From Lactobacillaceae bacterium (lineage in GTDB: Bacteria > Bacillota > Bacilli > Lactobacillales > Lactobacillaceae): a stretch of 38,724 nt of DNA. Of this stretch, positions 3,798 to 17,524 are shown in pieces. The stretch is taken from contig JAITPD010000060.1 in assembly GCA_031289615.1 (NCBI GenBank), positions 1 to 38,724 of the forward strand, read 5' to 3'. Every line of letters begins with the position of its first letter. Within the stretch, counting starts at the first letter, position 1. The notes under the pieces are model-generated. The model did not search any database and was not told the origin of the DNA. It saw only the letters and a program-made list of their open reading frames with translations. The translations under genes were made by a program, and so were the position numbers.

Positions 3798-3826
3798 CAT
3801 ATACATTTCCATATATTTTAATTTAC

Positions 3827-4230
3827 GAGTAGTGCTGGCTATGCAATATTGTTATTTACTTGATCAGCTTCGCTAAAGATTCTTTACGTTTCGGATTAGC
3901 CCTGCACGATTCATGTCGAATGGCGAAATAATTCGCCAATTTCACGGCGCTAAAGCACGCGTGAAAAAGTTCGCCTAGATTCGGCAAGGGTTGGTCATCC
4001 GACGACAGAATCGCTTCGCTGACCAGCAAACACCTTGGTCATTTTATTAAAGCGTGGTGGCTTGAAATGATAATGGTAGGTGATAACGCGAGGTAGCGGC
4101 ACCAATTCGACTAAATTTTGGTTTACCGAAATTAAAAGTCGAATGGGACCGTGTCGCCACTTACTATCATTATTGAAAAGCCACCACGCAAGTGAAAAAT
4201 GACCAAGATAGTGTATAACTAGAACAACAC
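3827..4230 (+). mobile_element. Repeat element A: MITE-like double palindrome, complete copy
   Basis: A 404-bp intergenic repeat with no gene. Module 1 (3861-4025) is a long imperfect palindrome (TGATCAGC at the left, GCTGACCA at the right; inner GATTCT/AGAATC and CGGAT/ATCCG). It encloses two sub-hairpins, TGGCGAA-ATAA-TTCGCCA and TTCACG...CGTGAA, giving a cloverleaf-like fold. Module 2 (4034-4207) is a rod: CTTGGTCATTTT pairs perfectly with AAAATGACCAAG, then GCGTGGTGGCTT pairs perfectly with AAGCCACCACGC, then an interrupted stem ends in TTCGAC/GTCGAA. The ends, GAGTAGTGCTGGCT and AACTAGAACAACAC, are degenerate inverted repeats. TTAATTT occurs just outside both ends (3818-3824, 4232-4238), a possible AT-rich target duplication. 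It lies between msmK and the amylase gene. Confidence 0.8.
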
Positions 4231-4239
4231 ATTAATTTT

Positions 4240-5343
4240 TTAGTGAATACGATCCTCAGTTGTAGCATCAAAGAAATGCGCTTTTGACATTTCAGCTGCC
4301 AATGTGACAACTTGACCAGGTTCAAGATAATCGCGCGCATTCACTCGGGCAACAAGTTCATTATCACCAACCTTGGCATAAAGCATCGAGTCAGCACCCA
4401 TTAGCTCAGAGAAGGTCACATCGGCCTTTAAAATAGCATTTGGGTAGGTGTCAAGAGCCACACGTTCAGCATGCAAATCTTCTGGACGAATACCAAAGTA
4501 AACTTCTTTACCGTTATAGCCTTGTGCATCAAGAACTTTGGCTTGACCAGCAGGGACTGATAATGAGAAATCAGACCCTAGGCTAATCGTTTGATTCTCA
4601 TACTTTACCTTAAAAATATTCATCGCGGGTGAACCAATAAATGTTGCGACAAAGAGATTTTGTGGCTCATTATAGAGTTCTCGGGGAGTTCCAACCTGCT
4701 TGATATCACCATAATCGATGATGACAATTCGGTCCGCCAGAGTCATCGCTTCGGTTTGATCGTGGGTAACGTAAATTGTAGTTGCACCAATCCGCTTGTG
4801 AATTTTAGTGATTTCAGCTCGCATTTGCACCCGCAACTTGGCATCTAGATTTGAAAGAGGCTCATCCATCAAGAGTAGTTTAACATCACGCACAATTGCT
4901 CGTCCCATGGCAACACGCTGCCGTTGACCTCCTGATAGGTCAGCCGGCTTACGATCGAGCAGCTCTTCTAGACCCAAAATTTTAGCGGCACTATGCACTC
5001 GAGTATCAATCTCATCTTTAGGAACTTTTCGCAGCTTCAAACCAAAACCGATATTGTCATAGACAGACATATGAGGGTAAAGGGCGTAGTTTTGGAACAC
5101 CATCGCAATATCGCGATCTTTTGGTGAAACATCATTCATGACCTTTTCATCAATGATAAACTCACCATCTGTGATTTCCTCAAGGCCAGCAACCATACGA
5201 AGAACAGTTGACTTACCAGATCCAGAAGGGCCGACAAAGACGATGAATTCTTTATCATGAATTTCCAAATTATAATCCTTGACGGTTGCTTCCGTCGCGT
5301 TGGGATAAGTTTTGTTGATGTGCTTTAATTGAATTTCAGTCAT
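4240..5343 (-). CDS. msmK: Sugar ABC transporter ATP-binding protein (MsmK/UgpC type)
   Basis: A 367-residue ATPase that powers carbohydrate ABC importers at the inner face of the membrane. Walker A GPSGSGKST (38-46), Q-loop Gln84, signature LSGGQ (136-140) and Walker B LLLMDEP (156-162) are followed by a C-terminal regulatory (TOBE/OB) domain. I place the start at 5343 (MTEIQLKHI) because AAGGATG lies 8 bases upstream; the frame is open further to 5397 but without a ribosome site. No permease or binding-protein genes are in the window. As with MsmK of streptococci, which serves several importers, this may be a shared ATPase. Expression probably comes from the extended -10 at 5399-5407, directly overlapped downstream by a cre box, so CcpA repression is expected. 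Confidence 0.92.
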   Translation of the reverse strand: MTEIQLKHINKTYPNATEATVKDYNLEIHDKEFIVFVGPSGSGKSTVLRMVAGLEEITDGEFIIDEKVMNDVSPKDRDIAMVFQNYALYPHMSVYDNIGFGLKLRKVPKDEIDTRVHSAAKILGLEELLDRKPADLSGGQRQRVAMGRAIVRDVKLLLMDEPLSNLDAKLRVQMRAEITKIHKRIGATTIYVTHDQTEAMTLADRIVIIDYGDIKQVGTPRELYNEPQNLFVATFIGSPAMNIFKVKYENQTISLGSDFSLSVPAGQAKVLDAQGYNGKEVYFGIRPEDLHAERVALDTYPNAILKADVTFSELMGADSMLYAKVGDNELVARVNARDYLEPGQVVTLAAEMSKAHFFDATTEDRIH

Positions 5344-5379
5344 ATTTTCAACATCCTTATTAAAGTTTATATAAAAAAA

Positions 5380-5393
5380 TGTAAACGTTTCCA
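5380..5393. promoter_or_regulatory. cre box (CcpA site) for msmK
   Basis: TGTAAACGTTTCCA matches the cre consensus TGWAANCGNTNWCA at 13 of 14 positions. It lies immediately downstream of the msmK -10 element, over the likely transcription start, a position where CcpA represses. Confidence 0.8.
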
Positions 5394-5398
5394 CCAAA

Positions 5399-5407
5399 AG
5401 TATAACA
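5399..5407 (-). promoter_or_regulatory. Extended -10 promoter of msmK
   Basis: On the minus strand TGTTATACT is an extended -10 (TGnTATACT). No good -35 is seen 17 bases upstream (GTGCTA), which fits an extended -10 promoter. The start would fall near 5390, inside the cre box. Confidence 0.55.
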
Positions 5408-5531
5408 AATCACAAGGTTGATAGCACGTAATATGACCTAGAACTCCATTTGTATTTAGTATGTAGTGAAGGGTGTGGAAATTCAACAATGTCACAAAAC
5501 GTCGAAAGCAAAGCACAAAACTGTCTATCTA

Positions 5532-5545
5532 TGTAAGCGGTTACA
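5532..5545. promoter_or_regulatory. cre box (perfect) upstream of the permease-gal operon
   Basis: TGTAAGCGGTTACA fits TGWAANCGNTNWCA at all 14 positions. It lies between msmK and the permease gene, 21 bases left of the direct repeat that bounds repeat element B. The rest of 5408-5565 is AT-rich intergenic DNA in which I see no other clear site. Confidence 0.85.
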
Positions 5546-5565
5546 ATTTAAGGTTAAGAAGTAAT

Positions 5566-5575
5566 AATAACTAAC
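5566..5575 (+). repeat. Left direct repeat flanking element B (target site duplication)
   Basis: AATAACTAAC, repeated exactly at 5989-5998 at the other end of element B. Confidence 0.7.
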
Positions 5576-5988
5576 GCGTTTTGCTAGTTACGTAATATTA
5601 TGTTGTCCATTGCTTGATCAGCTTCGCAATAGATTCTTTACGTTCGGATGGCCTTGCACGAGTCACGGCGAATGGCAAAATAATTTGCCATTTTCACGGC
5701 GCTAAAGCACGCGTGAAAAGGTTCGCCTAGATTCGGCAAGGGCTGGTCATCCGACGACAGAATCGCTTCGCTGATCATACAAAGTACGGTAACACCTTGG
5801 TCATTTTATTTAAGGCGTGGTGGCTTGAGATGATGATAGTAGGTGAATCAGCGAGGTAGCGGCACCAATCCGACTCATTTTGAAAAAATGTGTAGTCGAA
5901 TGGGACCGTGTCGCCACTTACTATCATTAATCGAAAAGCCACCAGGCAAGTGAAAAATGACCAAGATATTTCCCAACTAGTACAATGC
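5576..5988 (+). mobile_element. Repeat element B: MITE-like double palindrome, best-preserved copy
   Basis: 413 bp, same order as element A. Ends are GCGTTTTGCTAGTT and, reverse-complemented from the right, GCATTGTACTAGTT (11 of 14 match). Module 1 spans 5615-5777 with a perfect outer stem TGATCAGC/GCTGATCA, and its first sub-hairpin is AATGGCAAA-ATAA-TTTGCCATT (9 bp). Module 2 spans 5796-5965. A 10-bp perfect direct repeat flanks the whole unit. The right end is about 33 bases before the permease start, so the repeat lies between the upstream cre box and the permease-gal genes. It codes for no convincing protein. Confidence 0.85.
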
Positions 5989-5998
5989 AATAACTAAC
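5989..5998 (+). repeat. Right direct repeat flanking element B
   Basis: AATAACTAAC, identical to 5566-5575. Ten perfect bases at both ends of a unit with terminal inverted repeats is the usual mark of transposition. Confidence 0.7.
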
Positions 5999-6021
5999 AC
6001 ACAAATAAGGAGCAGGTAAAC

Positions 6022-7440
6022 ATGTCTAATAAAATGAAGCAGCGTTTTGCATATGCCTTTGGTGCATTTGGCCATGATGCATATTACGTCACACTCTCAA
6101 CGTATTTCATGATTTTTGTCACTAGCACTTTGTTTTCTGGTGCTGATAAGGCTACTGAAGCCAAATATATTGGGATTGTAACTTCATTGGTAGTTGGAAT
6201 CCGCTTAGTTGAGATTATTTTTGATCCGATTATTGGAAGTATTATTGATAACACCCGCACAAAATATGGTAAATTCAAGCCTTGGTTGGTAATTGGTGGA
6301 CTTGTCTCGGCTTTGACACTGGTGATCATCTTCACGAATTTCTTTGGTCTCGCTGTTAGCAATCCGTCTCTTTATCTGGGACTATTCGCCGTCGTCTTTG
6401 TCCTCTTGGATAGCTTTTATTCATTCAAGGACATCGCGTTTTGGTCAATGATTCCAGCGTTGTCATCTGATACGGCAGAACGTGGAATGCTAGCAACCTT
6501 CGCTCGGTTTGGTTCTTCACTAGGAGCAAACGGAACGACAGCCTTAGTTGTCCCAATCGTTGCATTCTTCACAGTTTTAACTGGCGGTAGTGGTAAGGAA
6601 AGTGCTGCAGGTTGGTTCTGGTTTGCAGTGATCATCGCGATCATTTCTGGTGGTTCGGCTTTGGTCACAGCAAAGTTTTCAAAGGAAAATGAGACAGTTT
6701 TGCGGACGCAGACAAATGAAAAATATAATATTTTAGATGTATTCCGTGCGATTGCAAAGAATGACCAATTATTGTGGCTGGCTCTTTCATACATGTTTTA
6801 TGCGATTGCCAACGTTGCTACGACTGGTGTTTTGCTGTTCTACTTCAAGTTTGTGATTGGGCATGTCACAGAATTTGCGATGGTCGGTGTGGTTTCAATG
6901 ATTACAGGAATCATCGCTGTGCCTTTGTTCCCAGTCTTAACTCGCTTAATTACACGGCGATACGTATTTATCAGCGGAATCATTTTGATGTTATTAGGTT
7001 ATTTCACATTTACGATTGCTGGCACGAACCTGTGGATTGTCGGTCTCGGCCTGGTGCTGTTCTACTTCCCACAACAGCTGATTTTCTTGTCAGTTCTGAT
7101 GACGATCACGGATTCAGTCGAATATGGTCAGTGGAAGAATGGCGTGCGAAATGAAGCTGTCACACTATCATTGCGTCCTTTGCTTGACAAGTTGGCTGGT
7201 GCATTTTCAAATGCGATCGTGGGATTTGTGGCGATTGCTGCTGGAATGACTGGTAGCGCAACGTTTAAAGATATGACAGTGAGTGGAATTCACACTTATA
7301 AGCTGTACGCATTTTATATTCCGGCGGCGTTGATGTTGATTTCGATGATAATTTTCATCTCCAAAATTAAACTGACTGAAAAGCGCCATGCCGAAATTGT
7401 GCAAGAACTTGAGACGCGTTATAGCCAGGACGAAAAATAG
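6022..7440 (+). CDS. GPH-family sugar:cation symporter (LacS/MelB-like, no IIA domain)
   Basis: A 472-residue integral membrane protein with about 12 hydrophobic segments. It starts KMKQRFAYAFGAFGHDAYYV, the usual opening of GPH (glycoside-pentoside-hexuronide) symporters. It carries the family loop DSVEYGQWKNGVRNEA near residue 365. LacS proteins of streptococci are about 630 residues with a C-terminal EIIA domain; this one stops after the last membrane helix and a short tail, so it lacks that domain. AAGGAG lies 9 bases before the ATG. galK and galT follow in the same direction, so lactose, galactose or an alpha-galactoside is the likely substrate. No galactosidase is in the window, which leaves free galactose or import by a remote partner open. 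Confidence 0.88.
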   Translation: MSNKMKQRFAYAFGAFGHDAYYVTLSTYFMIFVTSTLFSGADKATEAKYIGIVTSLVVGIRLVEIIFDPIIGSIIDNTRTKYGKFKPWLVIGGLVSALTLVIIFTNFFGLAVSNPSLYLGLFAVVFVLLDSFYSFKDIAFWSMIPALSSDTAERGMLATFARFGSSLGANGTTALVVPIVAFFTVLTGGSGKESAAGWFWFAVIIAIISGGSALVTAKFSKENETVLRTQTNEKYNILDVFRAIAKNDQLLWLALSYMFYAIANVATTGVLLFYFKFVIGHVTEFAMVGVVSMITGIIAVPLFPVLTRLITRRYVFISGIILMLLGYFTFTIAGTNLWIVGLGLVLFYFPQQLIFLSVLMTITDSVEYGQWKNGVRNEAVTLSLRPLLDKLAGAFSNAIVGFVAIAAGMTGSATFKDMTVSGIHTYKLYAFYIPAALMLISMIIFISKIKLTEKRHAEIVQELETRYSQDEK

Positions 7441-7458
7441 GAATTAGAGGAAATTAAA

Positions 7459-8631
7459 ATGAAACGAGTGAAGGAATTAAATACAAAATTTGCAGAAGTC
7501 TTTGGCCCCCAAACGACTCAACAATATTTTTCACCAGGACGCATCAATTTGATTGGTGAACACACAGATTACAATGGTGGGCACGTTTTCCCAGCTTCGA
7601 TTACGTATGGAACATATGGGGTGGCAGCTAAGCGAACTGATCGCAGGATTTTAGTTTATTCGACGAACTTTGCTGAAAATGGAGTGATTCAGCTGAGCCT
7701 CAACGAGTTGGCTTTTAATCCTGAAGATGGATGGGCTAACTATGTGAAGGGCGTCATTGTAAAACTTGAAGAGCAGGGTTATTCGATCAACACTGGCTTT
7801 GAGTTATTAGTTGAAGGTAATATTCCAAACGGAGCGGGGCTTTCATCATCTGCCTCACTCGAGTTGTTGGTTGGAGTGATGTTACAGGATTTGTTTGATT
7901 TGGACATCTCTCGGTTAGAGCTTGTTAAGACAGGTCAAAAGGTTGAAAATGAGTACTTTGGGCTTAACACTGGGATTATGGATCAATTTGCCATTGGTTT
8001 TGGTGAACAAGACAAAGCAATTTTACTGGATACAAACACAATGGAATATGAAATGGTGCCAGTGGTTTTGGAAGGTTATGCAGTGGTGATTATGAATACG
8101 AATAAGCGCCGTGAGCTGAGTGATTCAAAATATAATGAACGCCGCGCAGAGTGTGAAGAAGCATTGCGGCGCTTGCAAAAAAAACTCAAGATTAATAGTT
8201 TGGGTGAATTGACAAATGTTCAATTTGAGGTAAATACAGATTTGATTGACGATGAAACTTTGATTCGGCGGGCGCGCCATGCGGTTTATGAAAATCAACG
8301 AACGCTAGAAGCCAAGGAAGCATTGAGCGCTGGTGACTTGGTGAAGTTCGGTCATTTGTTGAATGAGTCACATGCTTCGTTACGTGATGATTATGAAGTT
8401 ACTGGGATCGAATTGGATACATTGGTTCATTCGGCTCAAAAGCAAGCTGGAGTTCTCGGTGCTCGGATGACTGGAGCTGGTTTTGGCGGTTGTGCAATTG
8501 CGTTGGTTGAAGAAACAGGCATTTCAAAATTTGAGAATAACGTTTATGATGAGTATATGCAAACTGTTGGGTATGCCCCAGAATTTTATGTAGCGCATAT
8601 TGGAAATGGGACGACGAAATTAGCAGATTAA
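7459..8631 (+). CDS. galK: Galactokinase
   Basis: A 390-residue GHMP-family kinase, first enzyme of the Leloir pathway (galactose + ATP to galactose-1-phosphate). The galactokinase signature PGRINLIGEHTDYNGG is at 26-41, the GHMP ATP loop GAGLSSSASLE at 125-135, the catalytic-base Asp175 in TGIMDQFA, and the C-terminal GHMP motif GARMTGAGFGG near 335. Length is standard. It starts 18 bases after the permease stop, with GAGG before the ATG. galT follows by 19 bases, so permease-galK-galT form an operon. galE and galM are not present. Confidence 0.97.
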   Translation: MKRVKELNTKFAEVFGPQTTQQYFSPGRINLIGEHTDYNGGHVFPASITYGTYGVAAKRTDRRILVYSTNFAENGVIQLSLNELAFNPEDGWANYVKGVIVKLEEQGYSINTGFELLVEGNIPNGAGLSSSASLELLVGVMLQDLFDLDISRLELVKTGQKVENEYFGLNTGIMDQFAIGFGEQDKAILLDTNTMEYEMVPVVLEGYAVVIMNTNKRRELSDSKYNERRAECEEALRRLQKKLKINSLGELTNVQFEVNTDLIDDETLIRRARHAVYENQRTLEAKEALSAGDLVKFGHLLNESHASLRDDYEVTGIELDTLVHSAQKQAGVLGARMTGAGFGGCAIALVEETGISKFENNVYDEYMQTVGYAPEFYVAHIGNGTTKLAD

Positions 8632-8650
8632 CATTAGGAAAGTGAGGCCA

Positions 8651-10138
8651 ATGAAAATGGAAGTTAGTCAAGCAGTTCATGACTTAATCACGCTGGCCAT
8701 CCAAAATGGGCGTTTTAAAAATGAAGACCGGGTTTATGCAGAAAATAATTTATTACGAATGATCGGTGCAAACACTTATCATGAGAAAGTCATGACAGGT
8801 GAGACGAATCCACAAATTATTTTGGATACGTTGCTTGAAGCTGCTCAAGTAAATCACATGTTAAATGAGCGGGTGAATGCTGACATGCTAGGGGCTCTGA
8901 TCATGGATATGATAACACCATTGCCTAGCCAGATTAATCAACATTTTTGGGCTCTCTACGCGACAGGTCCACGGATGGCAACTGACTATTTCTATGAGCT
9001 TGCTCAGCAAAACGATACGATTAAGACGCGCGCCATTGCTAAAAATGTCCGTTATTTCGCGCCAAGTAAGTATGGTGAGTTAGAGATTACGATTAACTTG
9101 TCAAAGCCAGAAAAAGATCCAAAAGCGATTGCACAAGCTGCTAAATTACCAGTTACTTCATATCCAGAAGGCATGTTGAGTATTGAGAACGAAGGTTATT
9201 TTGGCCGATTGAATTATCCTGGCCGTAGTAATCACCGAATTGTGAAATTGACGCTGGCTGGTGAACCGTGGGGCTTGCAGTATTCGCCGTATGCATATTT
9301 TAATGAACATGCGATTGTGCTAAGCGAAGTTACTCGTCCGATGGTGATTTCGCGTGATACGTTTGTGCGTCTGGCGGATTTCATTGAACAATTTCCACAC
9401 TATATGATTGGGTCAAATGCGGATTTACCAATTGTTGGTGGTTCAATTTTGACACATGATCATTATCAAGCTGGACGCCATGAATTTCCGATGGCAAGGG
9501 CGCAATTGAGAAGCAAGTTTACGTTGCATCAATTTCCAAATGTCCAAGCCGGGATTGTGAAGTGGCCAATGAGTGTAATACGTTTGGATTCGTTAGACAA
9601 GGATGCTTTGATTGACGCGGGTGAGTTGGTTCGAACCAAGTGGAATGAATTTAATAATGAAGCGTTGCAAATTAAGGCAGTGGGAACTGATGGGATTCGG
9701 CATCATACAGTAACGCCGATTATGCGCAAAATTGGCGATCTATTTGAGCTTGATTTGGTTTTGCGTGACAACAATGTCAGTGCTGAATTTCCAGATGGTA
9801 TTTTTCATCCGCATCCAGATGTCCAACATATTAAGCAAGAAAATATTGGGCTGATTGAGGTGATGGGCTTGGCAATTTTGCCTCCGCGTTTGCTAAAAGA
9901 GCTGGCTGAAGTGAAGAAATATTTGCTTGGCGAACCAGCAGAAGTCAAAGCAATCCACCAACCGTGGGCAGAAACGCTGAAGCAACAGGGTGAATATCGT
10001 CATGAAGATGTGGATCAATATTTGCAACAAGCTGTAGCCAATGTGTTTGAACGGGTTTTGGAAGATGCTGGAGTCTTTAAAGACACGCCAGAAGGTCAAG
10101 CTGGGTTTGCAGAGTTCATTGCAACGTTGAATGAATAA
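8651..10138 (+). CDS. galT: UTP/UDP-glucose--hexose-1-phosphate uridylyltransferase, class II
   Basis: 495 residues, second Leloir enzyme: it transfers UMP from UDP-glucose to galactose-1-phosphate. Size and sequence (LPIVGGSILTHDHYQAGRHE around 259-278) match the long Firmicutes class II GalT, not the roughly 350-residue class I enzyme. I chose ATG 8651 (GGAAAG about 8 bases upstream); a GTG at 8642 and an ATG at 8657 are in frame, and the latter also has GAGG at good distance. It is the last gene of the permease-galK-galT operon and ends at a strong terminator. Confidence 0.95.
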   Translation: MKMEVSQAVHDLITLAIQNGRFKNEDRVYAENNLLRMIGANTYHEKVMTGETNPQIILDTLLEAAQVNHMLNERVNADMLGALIMDMITPLPSQINQHFWALYATGPRMATDYFYELAQQNDTIKTRAIAKNVRYFAPSKYGELEITINLSKPEKDPKAIAQAAKLPVTSYPEGMLSIENEGYFGRLNYPGRSNHRIVKLTLAGEPWGLQYSPYAYFNEHAIVLSEVTRPMVISRDTFVRLADFIEQFPHYMIGSNADLPIVGGSILTHDHYQAGRHEFPMARAQLRSKFTLHQFPNVQAGIVKWPMSVIRLDSLDKDALIDAGELVRTKWNEFNNEALQIKAVGTDGIRHHTVTPIMRKIGDLFELDLVLRDNNVSAEFPDGIFHPHPDVQHIKQENIGLIEVMGLAILPPRLLKELAEVKKYLLGEPAEVKAIHQPWAETLKQQGEYRHEDVDQYLQQAVANVFERVLEDAGVFKDTPEGQAGFAEFIATLNE

Positions 10139-10144
10139 ATTAAT

Positions 10145-10183
10145 AAAAAATCAAACGACTATCATAAGCCGTTTGATTTTTTT
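10145..10183. terminator. Bidirectional intrinsic terminator after galT
   Basis: AAAAATCAAACG (10146-10157) pairs with CGTTTGATTTTT (10170-10181), with A-run and T-run flanks. It serves galT and the convergent AraC-type gene. Confidence 0.9.
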
Positions 10184-10185
10184 CA

Positions 10186-11097: not shown

Positions 11098-11124
11098 AAA
11101 ATTAAGACCTTTTAAATACAAAAA

Positions 11125-11138
11125 TGAAAACGCTTACA
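11125..11138. promoter_or_regulatory. cre box (perfect) upstream of the AraC-type gene
   Basis: TGAAAACGCTTACA fits TGWAANCGNTNWCA at all 14 positions. It is close to the start of the AraC-type gene, so CcpA should repress this regulator on glucose. The stretch 11139-11306 holds only AT-rich DNA without a site I can name. Confidence 0.85.
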
Positions 11139-11306
11139 AAAAATATTGTATCATAATTAGTGTGATTTGTAAGTGCTCTTTATGAATTACGTGATTTTCA
11201 GTAATTATTTTCTAGTGATATCATCAATAAGATACCAAAATGACAGCACATAAAGCATGATAAAAGATGGATATAATAATGATGAAAATTCTCATTTATA
11301 TGAAAA

Positions 11307-11320
11307 TGTAAGCGTTTGTA
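11307..11320. promoter_or_regulatory. Weak cre-like box upstream of the PTS EIIC gene
   Basis: TGTAAGCGTTTGTA fits the cre consensus at 12 of 14 positions (the WC near the end is replaced by GT). It lies about 106 bases before the EIIC start. Confidence 0.5.
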
Positions 11321-11376
11321 ATAAACTTCATGGTTATGTCAAATTTTGAGCTTAAATTGATTAGAAAAATCATTTA

Positions 11377-11412
11377 TCCTATAAATAGGACAAAAAGTCC
11401 GGATTCATAGGG
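11377..11412 (+). promoter_or_regulatory. Leader hairpins before the PTS EIIC start
   Basis: TCCTATAAATAGGA (11377-11390) is a perfect palindrome overlapping GGACAAAAAGTCC (11388-11400). A second ATAGGG (11407-11412) at the ribosome site can also pair with the same CCTAT. Alternative pairing could affect translation start, but this is only suggested by sequence. Confidence 0.35.
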
Positions 11413-11425
11413 AGGGAAGAAAGTT

Positions 11426-12712
11426 ATGGATAACATTACTAAGTTTTTGGAGAAATATTTGACACCGGTTGGAGCTAAATTGGCTAATAATAAGCCACTG
11501 ACAGCCATTCGAGACGGGATCGCAATGGCAATGCCACTGATTATTATTGGTTCAGCAGCGATGTTGATCGCCAATGGTTTTGCCATCGATTCATTTAAAG
11601 GTTGGCTAGTTGAGACAGGGGTCTTTGATTGGCTGGTCAAGGTGGTTAATTCAACATTTGGCTTGATCGGAATCGTGTCAGTATTTGGAATTGCATATCG
11701 TTATGCGCAATCATTAAAGGTTGAACCAACTTCAGCCGGAATTCTATCTTTGGCTAGCTTCATTTTGGTAACACCAGATTTGATTGCTAAAGATGGAACA
11801 GGAATTTCATTTGGTTATTTGGGAGCTGCCGGTTTATTCGCAGCAATCCTAGTTTCACTTTTGACTACGAAGGTTTTCTCAATCTTTGTGAAACGCGATA
11901 TTCAGATTAAGATGCCTGATGGGGTTCCGCCTGCAGTTTCAGCATCATTTGCAGCGTTGATTCCAGGAGCAGTGATTATTATTGGTTGGGGTGCAGTCTA
12001 TGCCTTGCTAGCAATGACGCCGTTCCACAACATTCACCAAATTTTGCAAGTGCTTTTGGGACAACCATTGACTGCCTTTGGTGGATCATTAGCCGGAGCG
12101 TTAGTCGTGACGATTTTGACATCACTGTTCTGGTTTGTCGGGGTCCACGGTGGAAACGTTACTGGAGCAATCATGTCACCAATCTGGTTGGCAATGATGG
12201 CGCAAAACTTGAAGGTCTATGAAGCAAATCCTAACGCAACGATGCCACATATTGTGACACAACCATTTATGGACATGTTCGTTTATCTTGGTGGTGGTGG
12301 AGCAACGTTTGGTTTGGTAATTGCAATTTTGATTGCTGCTAAGTCAGCGAAGTTAAAGATGATGAAGCCATTGATTACCGCGCCTGGAATCTTTAACATC
12401 AATGAGCCAACAATGTTTGGTGTGCCAGTTGTGTTGAACGTTAAGTTGATTATTCCATTCGTCTTGGCACCAGTTGTGAATGCAATTATTGCCTTTGTTA
12501 CAATGTCAACTGGAATGGTGCACGCCACAGTTGGAATCGTGATTCCTTGGGTAATGCCACCAGTGATTTCTGGATTCTTGGCAACTGGTTCACACATTTC
12601 TGGAGCGGTTTTGCAGATTGTCTTGATCGTGATTGACGTTTTGCTTTACTTGCCATTCGTGAAGGTGATGGATACTGATGAATTAAAGCTGGAAGCAACA
12701 GCAGAAGCATAA
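11426..12712 (+). CDS. PTS EIIC, cellobiose/lichenan (lactose-cellobiose) family
   Basis: A 428-residue membrane permease of the PTS. It has about 10 hydrophobic segments, the N-terminal FLEKYLTPVGAKLANNKPLT and the substrate-site region FNINEPTMFGVPVVLN (near 325), both typical of CelB/LicC-type EIIC. No EIIA or EIIB gene is beside it, so it must borrow these from elsewhere. mupG follows on the same strand after repeat element C. EIIC genes of this kind next to mupG (DUF871) are, to my knowledge, common in lactobacilli, suggesting uptake of a cell-wall disaccharide or beta-glucoside. GGGAGGGAAG precedes the ATG. Confidence 0.9.
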   Translation: MDNITKFLEKYLTPVGAKLANNKPLTAIRDGIAMAMPLIIIGSAAMLIANGFAIDSFKGWLVETGVFDWLVKVVNSTFGLIGIVSVFGIAYRYAQSLKVEPTSAGILSLASFILVTPDLIAKDGTGISFGYLGAAGLFAAILVSLLTTKVFSIFVKRDIQIKMPDGVPPAVSASFAALIPGAVIIIGWGAVYALLAMTPFHNIHQILQVLLGQPLTAFGGSLAGALVVTILTSLFWFVGVHGGNVTGAIMSPIWLAMMAQNLKVYEANPNATMPHIVTQPFMDMFVYLGGGGATFGLVIAILIAAKSAKLKMMKPLITAPGIFNINEPTMFGVPVVLNVKLIIPFVLAPVVNAIIAFVTMSTGMVHATVGIVIPWVMPPVISGFLATGSHISGAVLQIVLIVIDVLLYLPFVKVMDTDELKLEATAEA

Positions 12713-12720
12713 ATATATGA

Positions 12721-13094
12721 TCGTGAAACACTTTGGTCATTTTTCACTTGCGTGGTGGCTTTTCAATAACTGATAGTAAGTGGCGACACGGTCCCATTCG
12801 ACTACACATTTTTGCAAAATGAGTCGAATTGGTGCCGCTACCTCACGTGATCACATACTATCATTATCTCAAACCACCACGCCTTAATTAAATGACCAAG
12901 TGATTAGGGTCGTTCAGCGAAACGATTCTGTCGTCGGATGACTAGCCCTTGCCGAATCAAGGCGAACACTTTTTCACGCGTGCTTTAGCACCGTGAAAAT
13001 GGCAAATTAATTTGCCATTCGCCGTGACTCGTGCAGGGCCATCCGAACGTAAAGAATCTTTAGCGAAGCTGAACGACAAATCGTAGCATTGTGC
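12721..13094 (-). mobile_element. Repeat element C: MITE-like double palindrome, inverted copy
   Basis: About 374 bp, opposite orientation to A, B and D. Module 2 is at 12731-12900 and module 1 at 12909-13077. The module 1 outer stem is GTCGTTCAGC/GCTGAACGAC (10 bp), compensatorily changed relative to B. Sub-hairpins are TTCACG-c-GTGC-TTTA-GCAC-CGTGAA and the TGGCAAA/TTTGCCA pair. The module 1 side ends in GTAGCATTGTGC, which resembles the terminal repeat (reverse complement GCACAATGCTAC). The module 2 side has no clear terminal repeat and runs close to the EIIC stop, so the left limit is approximate. No flanking direct repeat found. Confidence 0.75.
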
Positions 13095-13139
13095 GTTACG
13101 TTATAATTAGTACAGACAGTTTGTTAGAAGGGGTGCAAA

Positions 13140-14228
13140 ATGACATTAGGAATTTCAATTTATCCATCTAAATCTACTTTAAAAGAAATGCAAGCATATT
13201 TAGATACGACCGCTGCATTAGGCTACAAACGTATTTTTACATCAATGCTCGAAGTCGCTGACAATCCGGATGAGACGTTGGATCTGTTTAAGACAATCAT
13301 TCATTATGGAAATGATTTAGGAATGGCAACGACGATCGACATTAATCCAAGTCTATTTCAAACATTGAAGATCAGCTATGACGATTTGAGTTTGTTCCAC
13401 GAATTAGGGGCAGACGCAATCCGGCTAGATGAAGGCTTCACTGGTATGGAAGAAGCTGCGATGACGCAAAATCCATTTGGCCTAAAAGTTGAGATTAATA
13501 TTTCACGGGGTCAACATTATATTGATTTGATTAATGATTTCGGACCAAACCGGCAATGCTTGATGGGCTCACACAATTTTTATCCGCAAACCTTTACTGG
13601 GCTTGAGGCTGATTATTTTGTGGGAACGGCAAAACAGTACAAAAATTATAATTTAAATACTGCGGCGTTTATTGACACACCTTCTGGAAAAGTTGGTCCA
13701 TGGCCAAACTCGAATCTGATGGTTAGCGCGGAAGTTCAGCGCACGATGAATGTGCAAACCCAAGTTCGTTGGTTAAAGATGTTGGGTGTGATTGATGATA
13801 TTTTGATTTCTAGTTCAATGGTTGCAACAGATGATTTGCAAAAAATATCAGAAGCATACTATGAGCCGTTGCCAGCGTTAACGATTGAGTTTAATCAAGA
13901 TGCGACAGAGCTTGAACGCAAGATTGTGTTGGAATCAAAGCACATGTATCGCGGAGATTATTCTGGCTATATGATTCGTTCGACGATGACGCGGGTGCAT
14001 TTCAAGCATGAGGAAAATCCAGCGCACCACACAACTACAATTGAGTTGGGGGATGTGACAGTTGGAAATAATCAGGCTGGTCAATACAAAAATGAAACGC
14101 AAATTGCTTTGAAGGAGCGACCAAATCTTGGTGAACAGCATAATGTTGTCGGAAAGATTGTGGATGGCGACTTAGCTTTGCTGAAGTTGATTCAGCCATG
14201 GCAGTCATTTAAGATTGTGGAAGCATAA
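13140..14228 (+). CDS. mupG: MupG-family 6-phospho-N-acetylmuramidase (DUF871)
   Basis: 362 residues, the normal length of the MupG/DUF871 family: an N-terminal TIM barrel (1 to about 240) and a C-terminal beta domain (about 250-362). It opens MTLGISIYPSKST and carries LGADAIRLDEGF and LKVEINISRG in the barrel, family signatures. In Staphylococcus aureus MupG splits MurNAc-6-phosphate-GlcNAc taken up by a PTS during peptidoglycan recycling. Here the upstream gene is a PTS EIIC and nagB lies 2 kb downstream, consistent with amino-sugar recovery. murQ and nagA are not in the window. GAAGGGG lies 6-7 bases before the ATG. Confidence 0.87.
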   Translation: MTLGISIYPSKSTLKEMQAYLDTTAALGYKRIFTSMLEVADNPDETLDLFKTIIHYGNDLGMATTIDINPSLFQTLKISYDDLSLFHELGADAIRLDEGFTGMEEAAMTQNPFGLKVEINISRGQHYIDLINDFGPNRQCLMGSHNFYPQTFTGLEADYFVGTAKQYKNYNLNTAAFIDTPSGKVGPWPNSNLMVSAEVQRTMNVQTQVRWLKMLGVIDDILISSSMVATDDLQKISEAYYEPLPALTIEFNQDATELERKIVLESKHMYRGDYSGYMIRSTMTRVHFKHEENPAHHTTTIELGDVTVGNNQAGQYKNETQIALKERPNLGEQHNVVGKIVDGDLALLKLIQPWQSFKIVEA

Positions 14229-14241
14229 TTAAAGATATTAG

Positions 14242-14282
14242 AAAACGAGGCTGGAACGAAATTGTTCTGACCTCGTTTTTTT
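14242..14282 (+). terminator. Intrinsic terminator after mupG
   Basis: AAAACGAGG (14242-14250) pairs with CCTCGTTTT (14271-14279), followed by more T. It may also act for the convergent small gene. Confidence 0.88.
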
Positions 14283-14301
14283 GATGATTGGTTAGAAGTG
14301 T

Positions 14302-14541
14302 TTACCAGTGAAAGTCAACATTCAACGCATCTAGCAAATTCTTTTTTGTATCTTCATCAACTTCTGCCAACGAATCTGCGAGACCATCTTTGTGCATCAA
14401 GTCAAAATAAGTTAACAGCTCAAGGTAAGCACCACTGTACGTTTCACCGAGTTCGTGGAGCGCCTTTGGTTGTTGATTCATTTGGACTGCAAAAGCAATT
14501 GCAAGTTCGTGGGCGCGTTGGGCATTCGTGATTTTATTCAT
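14302..14541 (-). CDS. Small conserved-looking protein of unknown function
   Basis: 79 residues, soluble, largely helical and acidic, starting MNKITNAQRAHELAIAFAVQ. AAGGAG lies 7-8 bases before the ATG. It begins 20 bases after the adenine deaminase gene ends on the same strand, so the two are probably cotranscribed. I do not recognise a domain. The good ribosome site and operon position support it as a real gene. Confidence 0.7.
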   Translation of the reverse strand: MNKITNAQRAHELAIAFAVQMNQQPKALHELGETYSGAYLELLTYFDLMHKDGLADSLAEVDEDTKKNLLDALNVDFHW

Positions 14542-14561
14542 TGTAAATCTCCTTAGATAAA

Positions 14562-16223
14562 TCAGGCGTTGATGTCGATAAAATCAAACTTATCAAAATC
14601 AAACAGTCCTTGGTCGGTAATTTTTAAACTTGGGATGACTGGTAGCGCCATAAACGACAATGTTAGGAAGGGATCAAACTCAATATCAGAAATTTGCTGA
14701 AAGGCTTTTTGGAGCGTTTCGATGTCTTGATCGGCCAGTGCATAAGGCTTGTTAGTGATGAGCCCTCCAATTGGAAGAGCAACCTTTGTGACATTACCAG
14801 TTCCGTCAACGACCACTAGACCGCCATGCATTTCCTTGAGCGTTTCAGCAACTTTTAACATGGCTGCGTCATCGACACCGACTAGCATAATATTGTGCGA
14901 ATCATGCGAAATGGTTGTTCCAATCGCTCCTTCGCGTAGTCCGATCCCGCTGATGATTGCGGTACTATTTCCTAGATCATGATAACGTTCGATCACAGTG
15001 ATTTTATTAAATTTTTCATCTGGCACAAACTTTCCAGCATCGTTTACTGGTACTGTTGTAATTTGATGTTCGGTCGTGATGTGATGCGGAATTACTTGGA
15101 TCACGTGGGCTTGGTCAGACTTGAGCGGTAAAACCAAATCAGTTGCTGCCAAAGTAAAGTTTAGTGGAGTAGCTGGAAACGCAACTGCTACATCATTTTT
15201 TATTGGATTAAACCATTCGCCGGCCACCATAGTTTGGCTGGCATGAAAATTTTCATCGGAGTCTAAGATAACTAGATCAGCGACATAGCCATCAGTCAGC
15301 GCGCCGACATTTTCTAAACGATGTGCAATTGCTGCATTGTAAGTTGCCATCGTCAGTGCTGCGGGGAATGAAAGTCCGTTTTGCAATGCAAGATTCAAGC
15401 TGAGATCAATTGACCCTTCAGAGAGCAAATCGTGCACGGTTTTGTCATCAGTACAAAATGAAAATTGACGAGAATTGCTTGGATTAACAGCTTTAAGCAC
15501 TTCTTTTTCATCACGTTCAACCGTTCCTTCGCGAATTAAGACATGCATGCCAGCAGCAAGGCGATCGAGCGCTTCATCTTGATTGGTTGCCTCATGGTCA
15601 GTGTCAATACCAACGCGCCGATAGACTGCTAATTGTTCTCGTGTTAGACCAGCACCATGTCCGTCAGCATGCTTGCCAGCTTGAATAGCATCATTGATTT
15701 TGGCGAGCATATCTGGATTAGCATTTGCCACAGCTGGGAAATCCATGACCTCAGCTAACCCGGCGATCTCTGGTTCTGAGTAAAAGGGCTTGAGGTCGCT
15801 GGCGGTCAGGGTTGCACCATTATGTTCGAATGACGCAGCAGGAACAGATGATGGCAGCATGTAATGAATATGAATGGGTGATTGGCGCGCGTCATCAATC
15901 ATAAATTGAATTCCGGCAACACCAGCCACGTTTGCGATTTCGTGCGGATCAGCAAAAATACGCGTGACACCGTGTTGAGCCAAGACAGCACCGAGTTGGC
16001 TGGGAACCAAGTATGAGCTTTCAACGTGCATATGGGCATCAATTAAGCCAGGGACAATGAATTTTCCTATAGCATCAAAGGTGGTTTCGGCAGTTAAATC
16101 GTCGCTCTTACCACGATAAAAAATAGAATCGCCGTCAATCCATAAGTCGGTTTGTTCGAAGCATTGATTAAAGACATCAAATACTTGTCCATTCGCAATG
16201 TGTAGTTTAACTTGGGTTGTCAT
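14562..16223 (-). CDS. ade: Adenine deaminase
   Basis: A 553-residue metal-dependent amidohydrolase that converts adenine to hypoxanthine and ammonia in purine salvage. VPGLIDAHMHVESSYLVPSQ (58-77) gives the first metal ligands (His64, His66), and FADPHEIANV (90-99) follows. HADGHGAGL (186-194) and a conserved C-terminal adenine-deaminase domain are present. Length is typical for bacterial Ade. AAGGAG lies 5-6 bases before the ATG. Its upstream region contains a deleted copy of the repeat element (16241-16307). Confidence 0.95.
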   Translation of the reverse strand: MTTQVKLHIANGQVFDVFNQCFEQTDLWIDGDSIFYRGKSDDLTAETTFDAIGKFIVPGLIDAHMHVESSYLVPSQLGAVLAQHGVTRIFADPHEIANVAGVAGIQFMIDDARQSPIHIHYMLPSSVPAASFEHNGATLTASDLKPFYSEPEIAGLAEVMDFPAVANANPDMLAKINDAIQAGKHADGHGAGLTREQLAVYRRVGIDTDHEATNQDEALDRLAAGMHVLIREGTVERDEKEVLKAVNPSNSRQFSFCTDDKTVHDLLSEGSIDLSLNLALQNGLSFPAALTMATYNAAIAHRLENVGALTDGYVADLVILDSDENFHASQTMVAGEWFNPIKNDVAVAFPATPLNFTLAATDLVLPLKSDQAHVIQVIPHHITTEHQITTVPVNDAGKFVPDEKFNKITVIERYHDLGNSTAIISGIGLREGAIGTTISHDSHNIMLVGVDDAAMLKVAETLKEMHGGLVVVDGTGNVTKVALPIGGLITNKPYALADQDIETLQKAFQQISDIEFDPFLTLSFMALPVIPSLKITDQGLFDFDKFDFIDINA

Positions 16224-16240
16224 TTTAGCTCCTTATTTTG

Positions 16241-16307
16241 AACTTAGTTGGGCTTGTTGCTATTTTAATCATTTTTCACTTGCGTTGTTTCACAAATTTC
16301 AATACGC
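16241..16307 (-). mobile_element. Deleted remnant of the repeat element (ends kept, interior lost)
   Basis: AACTTAGTTGGG (16241-16252) resembles the right end of element B read in reverse (ACTAGTTGGG). TCATTTTTCACTTGCGT (16269-16285) is identical to the outer arm of module 2, and AATACGC (16301-16307) followed by GTTAATTATA matches the outer left border of element D. Module 1 and the first arm of module 2 are gone, leaving about 67 bp. It covers the region just upstream of ade. Confidence 0.6.
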
Positions 16308-16390
16308 GTTAATTATACCCAAAAAAGTAGGAATTTTTAAGGATGAGCCCCTGTTTCTGCGACAATTTTACGAAGTTTGTATGATTTTGG

Positions 16391-16419
16391 TTTTCAAATA
16401 GAAAAAAATGCGTTATAAT
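16391..16419 (+). promoter_or_regulatory. Probable nagB promoter
   Basis: A perfect -10 TATAAT (16414-16419), with TTTTCA (16391-16396) 17 bases upstream as a poor -35. The start near 16426 leaves a 40-base leader. Confidence 0.55.
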
Positions 16420-16464
16420 TGGTCTATACCATTAAACAAAATAAAGACACGGGGGTTCAATATT

Positions 16465-17166
16465 ATGAACATTATGATTGTGAAAGACCAACTTGAGGGT
16501 GGCAAGGCTGGATTAAAGATTTTTTCAGACGCATTAGCAAATGGGGCAGAAGTTTTTGGCTTGGCAACTGGGTCAACGCCAATTTCTATTTATAACGATA
16601 TTCGGGCGAGTGATTTGGATTTTTCAGACAAGATTTCTATCAACTTGGACGAATACAAGGGGATTTCTGGTGATCACCCACAAAGTTACCGTTACTTTAT
16701 GAATGAGCATTTGTTTGCAGACAAGCCTTTCAAGGAAAGTTTTGTGCCAAACGGTTTGAACGAAGATGGGCAAGCTGAAGCGGCACGTTATGATGCGATT
16801 TTGGAGAAGTATCCACGTGATTTGCAAATTCTTGGATTGGGTCAAAATGGGCACATTGGGTTTAATGAGCCTGGAACATTATTTAGTTCAACAACGCATG
16901 AGGTTGATTTGACAGAATCAACCATTGAGGCGAACGCACGCTTCTTTGAAAATGAAAATGAAGTGCCCCGGCAAGCTTATTCAATGGGGATTAAGTCAAT
17001 TATGGATGCCAAGCAAATCTTGATTGTGGCTTATGGTGAAAATAAGGCCAAGGCTGTTAGTGCGATGATTAATGGAAGAGTGACAGAAGATGTTCCTGCT
17101 TCAATTTTACAAACGCACTCAAATGTCACTGTAATTTTGGATGACGCAGCAGCAAGTCTTTTGTAA
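16465..17166 (+). CDS. nagB: Glucosamine-6-phosphate deaminase
   Basis: A 233-residue cytoplasmic enzyme: glucosamine-6-phosphate to fructose-6-phosphate and ammonia. Features include [15 protein letters not shown] near 30, the catalytic region [15 protein letters not shown] (about 53-67), and [14 protein letters not shown] (about 125-138) with the ring-opening His. I chose ATG 16465, preceded by GGGGG; the frame is open upstream to 16408 but that start would overlap the promoter, and an ATG at 16474 is also possible. No NagC/NagR-type site is evident. Confidence 0.94.
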
Positions 17167-17175
17167 AAGCGAATT

Positions 17176-17211
17176 AGTGCTTCTTGAATCGAGATTTGAG
17201 GGCACTTTTTT
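17176..17211 (+). terminator. Intrinsic terminator after nagB
   Basis: AGTGC (17176-17180) pairs with GCACT (17202-17206), extended by two G-T pairs, followed by a T-run to 17211. Confidence 0.75.
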
Positions 17212-17215
17212 AGTA

Positions 17216-17223
17216 TAATTAAC
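17216..17223 (+). repeat. Left direct repeat flanking element D
   Basis: TAATTAAC, repeated exactly at 17517-17524. Confidence 0.55.
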
Positions 17224-17516
17224 GCATAGTGCTAGTTGTGTAATATTGTGCTTTGTATGATCAGCTCCGCTAAAGATTCTTTACGTTCGGATTTGCCCTG
17301 CACGATTCATGCCGAATGGCGAAATAATTCGCCAATTTCACGGCGCTAAAGCCCGCGTGAAAAATTTCGGCTAGATTCGGCAAGGGCTTGGTCATCCGAC
17401 GACAGAATCGCTATGCTGATCAATCAAAGTTCAATATTTTTCTGAACATCATGGTCATTTCAAACCACCACGCAAGTGAAAAATGACCATGATGTTGCTG
17501 AACTAGCATTACCAAT
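17224..17516 (+). mobile_element. Repeat element D: MITE-like, module 2 internally deleted
   Basis: 293 bp. It begins GCATAGTGCTAGTT and ends AACTAGCATTACCAAT. Module 1 is complete (17258-17422, TGATCAGC/GCTGATCA), with sub-hairpin TGGCGAA-ATAA-TTCGCCA. Module 2 is reduced to 17445-17496: AACATCATGGTCATTT pairs perfectly with AAATGACCATGATGTT, but the middle rod is missing apart from CCACCACGC. The base of this stem is CATGG/CCATG where A and B have CTTGG/CCAAG, a compensatory double change. An 8-bp direct repeat flanks it. Confidence 0.8.
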
Positions 17517-17524
17517 TAATTAAC
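17517..17524 (+). repeat. Right direct repeat flanking element D
   Basis: TAATTAAC, identical to 17216-17223. It is AT-rich, so weaker evidence than the repeat around element B. Confidence 0.55.

Follow-up and report, generated by a model that had tools for sequence, protein, structure and literature searches.

The large folded repeats dispersed between the genes of this Weissella-group genome probably descend from old MITE insertions in which recombination among the copies has kept the modules similar while the fold was under selection; this reading comes from comparing the sequences of the copies. The window, the 38,724-nucleotide stretch of DNA that was analysed, contains all four copies (A to D) that the original prediction placed there, and their parts are collected in Table 1. 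The bounds of A, B and D fell within a few bases of those predicted, with D starting at 17224 as claimed and ending at about 17513 instead of 17516. For copy C, the end near 13094 agreed and the other one was moved from 12721 to about 12709, so that this right end, aligned by eye, runs into the stop codon of a gene that ends at 12712. The module content was as described, with modules 1 and 2 (M1 and M2) in A, B and C, and M1 plus a short M2 remnant hairpin in D. Blocks common to the four copies share 73-93% identity.

Table 1. Coordinates of the four copies and their parts within the window
Feature	Position	Strand	Basis or remark
Left target-site duplication of A, TTAATTTAC	3818..3826		Partner TTAATTTTT at 4232-4240, 7/9 bases; locus L025
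Copy A, full element with M1 and M2	3827..4230	+	Sequence comparison
M1 of copy A, branched hairpin	3861..4025	+	Consensus fold and covariation
M2 of copy A, rod hairpin; internal loops GCGA[GGTA]NNNN[CA]CCA / TGG[GA]NNNN[G]TCGC	4035..4206	+	Consensus fold, covariation
Left target-site duplication of B, AATAACTAAC	5566..5575		10-base exact match to 5989-5998; locus L202
Copy B, full element	5576..5988	+	Sequence comparison, TIR, fold
M1 of copy B	5615..5777	+	Fold and covariation
M2 of copy B	5797..5964	+	Fold and covariation
Right target-site duplication of B, AATAACTAAC	5989..5998		Sequence
Copy C, full element, reversed	12709..13094	-	Ends decayed, placed by eye; no clear target duplication
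M2 of copy C	12733..12899	-	Sequence comparison
M1 of copy C	12911..13076	-	Sequence comparison
Left target-site duplication of D, ATAATTAAC	17215..17223		Partner TTAATTAAC at 17516-17524, 8/9; by eye
Copy D, M1 and short M2 remnant	17224..17513	+	Empty site in relative G018
M1 of copy D	17258..17423	+	Sequence, consensus fold
Short M2 remnant hairpin of copy D	17450..17491	+	Sequence, consensus fold

The genome search proposed with the prediction found many dispersed copies. Allowing up to 3 mismatches, a 20-base core occurs at 179 sites of the 2.01-Mb genome and its reversed control at none; 116 distinct core sites lie in the stretches that were retrieved, and copy B matched at least 40 places, itself included, at E ≤ 2e-100 (40 of 245 candidates scored), a likeness well outside what chance would give. 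Neither a single ancestral duplication lacking other copies and empty sites nor an already named element, the contrary outcomes named beforehand, was found. A DNA search of 200 other sampled genomes of the taxonomic family gave no match at E ≤ 0.001 with three candidates scored per genome. One relative, G216, has many copies of a repeat of about 270 nt with covarying stems and the same loop motif as M2 (Table 1), which differs in that its stems and ends are unrelated in sequence. A DNA query fitting the G216 type matched 2 of 397 genomes of the taxonomic family at E ≤ 0.001 (two candidates scored per genome); a pattern search of the same 397 found one, but its gap could not accommodate the G216 type, about which it is therefore uninformative. 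Plasmid or phage carriage was rejected since no match was found, the pattern giving 0 among viral contigs with a gap range that fits the type of this genome only.

The CTAGTT ends of the prediction are real. With up to 2 mismatches, GCGTWGTGCTAGTTRTG matched 82 times here, compared with 3 matches for the reversed control, while 27 other genomes of the genus had between 0 and 3 matches apiece; its single occurrence in G216 is within chance. The inverted ends, about 17-20 bp long, form 40 inward-facing pairs separated by 65-672 bp. The longest common word flanking a pair averaged 5.43, compared with 3.89 (sd 0.14) after permutation of the pairs. At least 7 bases were common in 11 of the 40, a count that averaged 0.96 and never exceeded 4 over 400 permutations, as expected of a target direct repeat of about 8-10 bp. 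The scans were positive at several adjacent offsets and negative at others, so this length is a range and not a fixed value. The set held 40 of 41 pairs, the dropped pair sharing a right end, and the duplication of copy D lies outside it. In the nine best-preserved copies the duplication reached p 0.0002, in one of 25 combinations of size and threshold that were tried. A TA target, as in IS630/mariner, was discarded because the apparent TA ends are part of a longer direct repeat. An empty site, which the prediction had asked for, was seen for copy D in relative G018, with a 16-nt exact match of the left flank and a right flank that is not clearly alignable. The nagB-HAD gap at this locus measures 393 here against 90, 220 and 201 in three relatives, those of the 27 with HAD inside 1.5 kb beside nagB. 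Co-variation of the TIR arms within a copy was rejected, since 15 of 100 permutations were equally good; the ends thus decay independently.

The different parts of the same copies have diverged very unequally. The genealogy test drew on 38 of the 116 copies, those both plain and complete; their difference from the consensus was 0.06-0.10 in M1 and M2 but rose to 0.35 for the spacer and 0.46 for the ends. The two modules are 16 nt apart, yet they have no common genealogy: nine comparisons of M1 with M2 distances gave r from -0.12 to 0.08, none significant, whereas pairwise distances within M1 correlated (r 0.39, 0.40 and 0.65). Two results in this set count against the main reading, the weak correlations among M2 sub-segments (r 0.14, 0.13 and -0.03; p 0.02, 0.10 and 0.66) and the weakly positive ones of the ends (Lend-M2c 0.24, p 0.003; M2c-Rend 0.18, p 0.05; Lend-Rend 0.17, p 0.02). 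Copies within 20 kb were no more alike than distant copies, a further point against that reading.

Linkage disequilibrium (r2) started at 0.051 in M1 and 0.087 in M2 and had reached background by about 20 nt and 20-40 nt, respectively. The M1 value comes from 81 of 88 aligned copies, seven with an alternative tip having been dropped and the other 28 of the 116 being without the usual left anchor; the M2 value comes from 58 of 76, after dropping 18 whose left arm is not of the simple type. Pairing partners at least 20 nt apart kept r2 of 0.081 and 0.063, against 0.014 and 0.018 (M1 and M2), and they would stand out among distant sites because recombination erases shared ancestry. This signal vanished in the unfiltered M2 set, where mixed architectures were aligned together (0.043 against 0.041). 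Predicted partners made up only 5 (M1) and 3 (M2) of the 25 strongest distant pairs, which counts against the main reading. Linkage equilibrium by itself could also be the outcome if the copies had long evolved under one common constraint.

Module content varies among the copies, of which 63 of 116 were classified and 53 are partial: 38 have M1 and M2, 10 an M2 insert, 8 a short M2, 4 an M1 insert, 2 both inserts and 1 an M1 insert with a short M2. At loci L206 and L204, M1 is absent or cut to a stub. The seven copies with the alternative M1 tip are no closer to each other outside it; they are more divergent there than average (99% of random sets of seven were at least as close), and may partly be old lineages. 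The M2 arms of the 16 carriers of a 127-nt M2 insert are no more similar than those of 48 non-carriers. Among the 10 M2-insert copies, M1 shows a slight excess of similarity over the average (p 0.047), a point against the main reading. Near linkage equilibrium and complex alleles common to unrelated copies are thus both observed.

Likeness of the modules could also reflect purifying selection without exchange, if every copy served the host as a bidirectional terminator or as a nucleoid-protein or topoisomerase site. We regard this as unlikely, though it has several observations on its side. The modules are sharply conserved compared with the decayed ends, and the G216 repeats of a second species have the same internal loops. 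The elements lie close behind stop codons, at a median of 3 nt from a 3' end against 88 nt from a 5' start, given the assumed element edges, and terminator-like sites between 3700 and 17600 are somewhat above shuffles (18 against 11.5, sd 3.9). However, orientation is unbiased among the 98 of 116 copies scored for gene context (42 ++, 36 --, 12 -+ and 8 +-; 17 had short flanks and one had no gene), and strong constraint would be needed on an estimated 50-70 kb of intergenic DNA. Such a function leaves unexplained the M1 tip of seven copies and the 127-nt M2 insert in otherwise unlike copies.

That the repeats are a structured RNA gene family or 3'-UTR elements, with the fold working as RNA, seems improbable. 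The fold of copy B is about 12 sd better than 100 dinucleotide shuffles, with z -12.0 as RNA; DNA parameters gave a nearly equal -12.4. The stability of the fold, the compensatory changes and the conservation of the unpaired loops speak for this reading. Double Watson-Crick cells numbered 185 against 92 expected in M1 and 92 against 54 in M2, an excess inflated by related copies and mixed architectures and, in M1, owed mostly to the variable basal stem. The wobble test pointed to no consistent strand (G-T 28 and A-C 69 cells in M1; G-T 88 and A-C 62 in M2), the orientation is unbiased, and promoter-like sites were no commoner than in shuffles (36 against 34.5). The prediction knew of no named family, and Rfam gave no match in the window at gathering score; at E ≤ 5 nothing fell on the repeats at five loci of this genome. 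Two G216 repeats resembled miRNA-precursor models at that threshold, well short of the gathering score, the best having E 0.0019 and 33 of 230 bits. A T-box likeness of UGGGACCGUG was rejected, as no T-box match was found in the seven loci searched. The tests made agree with the statement that the copies are non-coding: the only listed open reading frame inside a copy (71 aa, 5775-5990, minus strand, copy B) has no Pfam match, and just 16 of 58 M2 copies keep a minus-strand frame open from end to end.

Two further readings are very improbable. An ordinary MITE transposition burst, with age accounting for all differences, would fit the TIR, the target duplication, the empty site and the deletion derivatives, and is contradicted by the very unequal divergence of ends and modules in the same copies and by the independent genealogies of M1 and M2. 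Shuffling might instead be a short-read assembly artefact of the repeat, the draft (95.6% complete) being split into 65 contigs, with many contig ends lying within or shortly beyond an element. About 7% of M1 positions differ between copies, however, which should make most joins unambiguous, and the M1 linkage result was unchanged in 76 copies with at least 800 nt either side of the core.

No transposase was found among end pairs in 20 TIR regions (open reading frames listed for 6 of the 20), which counts against the main reading, and the only large frame between distant ends encodes a LytR_cpsA_psr protein. The two transposase families searched, Y1 (PF01797) and DDE_3 (PF13358), are absent from the draft genome; the Y1_Tnp search was positive in 5 of 14 control genomes. 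An IS630/mariner partner was rejected for want of DDE_3. REP/REPIN elements mobilised by a Y1 (RAYT) transposase, which likewise occur as populations of palindromes scattered over the genome and carrying compensatory changes (PMC3116915, PMC8049555), are hardly credible here, as Y1_Tnp is missing from the draft and the elements are much larger (REPs being 20-40 bp; PMC3733652), with TIR and target duplication.

The predicted MITE-like nature is supported in part: the copies are non-coding as far as tested, dispersed and bounded by inverted ends, with target duplications and an empty site for D, but they are not simply products of recent transposition. A mobile-element label does not by itself account for decayed ends beside modules that stay alike, evolve independently of each other and largely of the ends, and seem to exchange blocks. 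Under the preferred reading of old insertions homogenised by recombination, a non-autonomous MITE-like element entered many AT-rich intergenic sites long ago, each time with a duplication of about 8-10 bp, as the ends, the direct repeats and the one empty site show; a transposase acting in trans would have inserted it. Its terminal repeats then decayed, as their divergence shows. Dispersed copies would swap short stretches by gene conversion, presumably of RecA type, so that each module, and even module parts, would behave as one freely recombining pool. Exchange would halt at the module edges, where homology ends. Positions pairing in the hairpins stay statistically coupled, and variants that break the fold appear to be disfavoured. 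No conversion event was seen directly because there is only one strain to compare. SbcD is a possible trigger of breaks at palindromes; of 28 genomes of the genus, 21 have it above cut-off and this one does not, a point against the main reading, and SbcCD cleavage was rejected as the driver here. G216 has SbcD, and the other six genomes without it (G018, G203, G210, G113, G213 and G055) show no such repeats.

The GC content of A to D (0.433, 0.450, 0.443 and 0.434) exceeds that of the window (0.421). AT-richness is a usual trait of MITEs and not a strict criterion. Bacterial MITEs as described in a review (PMC10969869) likewise have TIR, target duplication and a stable fold without a transposase of their own. 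Unlike MITEs in general, the present elements have decayed ends, a homogeneous interior and no parent IS found, their modules seem to recombine between loci, and A to D lack AT-richness. That review contains none of the words gene conversion, concerted and Lactobac. BOX elements of Streptococcus pneumoniae and S. suis (PMC3049150) are likewise modular, dispersed and strongly folded with variable module content; compared by architecture, they are tandem arrays boxA-boxB(n)-boxC, unlike the 160-175-nt hairpins with plug-in tips found here.

More tentatively, the hairpin modules might be a freely recombining population within one chromosome, in which foldback DNA self-homogenises by copying tips and arms among about 180 loci after transposition ended; the modules would then be the replicating unit and the fold the selected trait, and the loop motif of the two species a putative site of the responsible protein. 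A 2-Mb genome with an estimated 3% of such DNA, missing from nearly every relative searched, is unusual. For extragenic palindromes of bacteria, gene conversion is a proposal decades old, reportedly made for REPs by Higgins in 1988, and is hard to tell from recent transposition or selection. Here the transposition ends, the two modules and the plug-in tips of the same copies give different answers, and this disagreement makes the question testable from sequence alone, with the contrast of pairing partners as a cleaner test of structural selection.

The four repeats of the window lie in four separate intergenic gaps, as originally predicted, and belong to a real family of intergenic repeats that is richer than first described. 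The module content proposed for them stood (M1 in all four copies, M2 in A, B and C), with the addition that copy D keeps a short remnant of M2. An element consists, in order, of a terminal inverted repeat (TIR), a short linker, M1, a spacer, M2, a linker and the inverted TIR, and this plain M1 and M2 architecture was found in 38 of the 63 copies having both anchors. Near-empty elements of 65 and 89 bp have almost nothing between their ends, and in two M2-bearing copies M1 is absent or cut to a stub. The fold of copy B is strong as DNA (z -12.4) and as RNA (z -12.0). No protein coding was apparent, in agreement with the prediction: the 71-aa ORF of copy B had no Pfam match, and a minus-strand frame was uninterrupted in 16 of 58 M2 copies.

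Features of the repeat family and of its surroundings (window positions unless another contig or locus is named)
Feature	Position or size	Strand	Sequence or content
Copy A	3827-4230	+	
Copy B	5576-5988	+	
Copy C	12709-13094	-	
Copy D	17224-17513	+	
Terminal repeat			(AC)GCGTWGTGCTAGTTRTG
M1	~165 nt		TGATCAGC...GCTGATCA
Spacer M1-M2	~16 nt		
M2	~170 nt		TTGGTCATTT...AAATGACCAA
Optional M1 insert	99 nt		
Optional M2 insert	~127 nt		
Alternative M1 tip	~65 nt		loci L016, L137, L146, L149, L182, L183, L187
Deletion forms			M2 lost, or both modules lost
Direct repeat around copy B			AATAACTAAC
Direct repeats around other copies			TAAATCTAAC, TTATTTATA, TAGCTTTA
Copy C right end, overlapping stop codon	12709-12712		gene ending at 12712
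MFS and galK genes	6022-8631		
Contigs ending past a core site	~60-260 bp beyond core		C1, C6, C10, C11, C12, C16, C19, C27, C37, C43, C45, C54, C59, C60
Weak SbcD match	C19 16468-16770		
Dispersed palindromic repeats of G216	loci L188-L200, e.g. L199 868-1140		only the loop motif in common with M2
Shared loop motif			GCGA[GGTA]NNNN[CA]CCA ... TGG[GA]NNNN[G]TCGC

The expectation of many dispersed copies was borne out. The 20-base core of M1 matched the host draft genome (2.01 Mb in 65 contigs, of which the window is C8) at 84 forward and 95 reverse sites, allowing at most 3 mismatches, while the reversed core gave no match; the fetched stretches held 116 distinct core sites. If all 179 copies measured about 400 bp, they would make up an estimated 3% or so of the genome. 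Many draft contigs stop shortly beyond a core site, so the copies at these ends are incomplete, and the real copy number may be above the counted one. The proposed search of other Lactobacillaceae gave no match at E <= 0.001 in 200 family genomes (with three candidates scored in each). Of the 28 genus genomes compared, only the host and G216 gave such matches, those of G216 being short and confined to one M2 motif; the next genome's best E was 0.007. The host is most likely a Weissella, because the MFS protein of the window is 83% identical to that of Leuconostoc litchii and 82% to that of Weissella kandleri, and the nagB and AraC alignment values of another genus genome, G086, equal those of the W. 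kandleri locus. The galK protein is 78% identical to that of L. litchii and 75% to that of W. kandleri. MFS and galK are as close or closer to L. litchii, a member of another genus, than to W. kandleri, and horizontal exchange of these galactose genes is possible.

TA flanks were suggested by a first end scan; the flanks instead bear direct repeats of greater length. The longest word common to both flanks averaged 5.43 bases over 40 inward TIR pairs, versus 3.89 (sd 0.14) with permuted partners, and 11 pairs had a common word of at least 7 bases (permuted mean 0.96, maximum 4, 400 permutations). For copy D, HAD was sought within 1.5 kb fetched beside nagB in the 27 other genus genomes and was found in three, with gaps of 90, 220 and 201 bp versus 393 bp in the host. 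In the relative with the 90-bp gap, the left flank of D, ACTTTTTTAGTATAAT, is matched exactly as far as the insertion point, and no element follows; the right flank aligns only loosely. An empty site of the kind predicted was therefore seen for copy D. The inverted ends, the direct repeats and this empty site are marks of a transposed element and establish the insertion history of a MITE-like element. Y1_Tnp and DDE_3 transposases were absent from the host genome, and none of 20 TIR regions had a transposase bracketed by paired ends; the sole large ORF between distant ends encodes a LytR_cpsA_psr protein.

With ORFs called roughly and the element edges assumed, 98 of the 116 copies could be assigned to a gap between two ORFs (42 ++, 36 --, 12 -+, 8 +-), at median distances of 3 nt to an adjoining 3′ end and 88 nt to a 5′ start, which is consistent with insertions tolerated downstream of genes. 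Besides copy C, several copies overlap a gene 3′ end by 5-25 nt, taking the assumed edge. The literature on Weissella and Lactobacillus intergenic palindromes and MITEs, with most subscription journals outside its scope, did not describe the family among the matches listed. BOX elements (PMC3049150) are the closest modular analogue.

In 38 complete copies, 46% of positions in the outer 44-49 nt differ from the consensus, as do 35% in the spacer and 6-10% in M1 and M2. Mean pairwise identity among 88 copies was 0.82-0.97 inside M1 and 0.43-0.45 immediately outside it. Since the parts of one insertion are equally old and their divergence is unequal, the modules are subject to some process that follows insertion. 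Complementarity between the two TIR arms of a copy did not exceed that with the arms of other copies, as expected if arms drift.

Intercopy distances correlated within M1 (r 0.39, 0.40, 0.65), weakly within M2 (0.14, 0.13, -0.03) and weakly in three end comparisons (0.17-0.24), and none of nine M1-M2 comparisons was significant (r -0.12 to 0.08) despite a separation of 16 nt. For common variants of the 38 complete copies, r2 was 0.19-0.26 for sites less than 20 nt apart and at background for sites more than 60 nt apart or in different modules. In larger cleaned sets, r2 fell beyond 20 nt from 0.051 to 0.013-0.015 in M1 (81 copies, expected 0.0125) and from 0.087 to 0.018-0.020 in M2 (58 copies, expected 0.0175). 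All four combinations were present in 655 of 677 distant common-site pairs of the M1 alignment, many of these sites being in variable flanks. Copies at most 20 kb apart were not closer in sequence than distant ones. Copies that are each an old, independent sample held to a common constraint could reach linkage equilibrium as well. The alternative M1 tip favours exchange instead: it is common to seven otherwise unlike copies (0.118 within versus 0.127 to others outside the tip, with 99% of random sets of seven as close or closer) and is too different for repeated origin. The M2 arms of 16 insert carriers likewise favour exchange, being no closer to each other (0.111) than to 48 non-carriers (0.106); M1 of 10 carriers was slightly closer than average (p 0.047), which counts against it. 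Repeated site-specific insertion could explain the M2 insert but hardly accounts for the replaced M1 tip.

With no linkage in the pool, distant sites should be independent. Mean r2 between consensus-fold partners was nevertheless 0.081 in M1 (15 pairs) versus 0.0144 for 1615 other distant pairs, and 0.063 in M2 (19 pairs) versus 0.0183 for 2470; predicted partners made up 5 (M1) and 3 (M2) of the strongest 25 distant pairs. The unfiltered M1 set kept the excess (0.125 versus 0.050) and the unfiltered M2 set had none (0.043 versus 0.041). This covariation indicates that the fold is under selection. Compensatory changes are reported for REPINs (PMC3116915). The alternative tip is also predicted to fold as a branched hairpin, simpler than the usual one. 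Changes to G-T versus A-C have opposite leanings in M1 and M2, a pattern that does not favour a single-strand transcript acting as RNA.

The repeats of G216 are about 270 nt long, with stems unrelated to those of the host and the same internal-loop motif (15 sequences), whose NNNN stem changes with compensation (GCGG/CCGT, GGAG/CTCT). A G216 query against 397 family genomes matched at E <= 0.001 only in the host and G216. Because the loops are kept while the stems turn over, they may be bound by some factor.

SbcD (TIGR00619) scored above cut-off in 21 of the 28 genus genomes and below it in the host and six others; the palindrome-cleaving nuclease has possibly been lost in the host. Gene conversion was reportedly proposed for REPs by Higgins in 1988. 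Here, linkage pattern and insertion history are both demonstrated, and we infer gene conversion as the process, an enzyme for it and a benefit of the fold. The modules of this large MITE-like family seem to recombine freely between loci.
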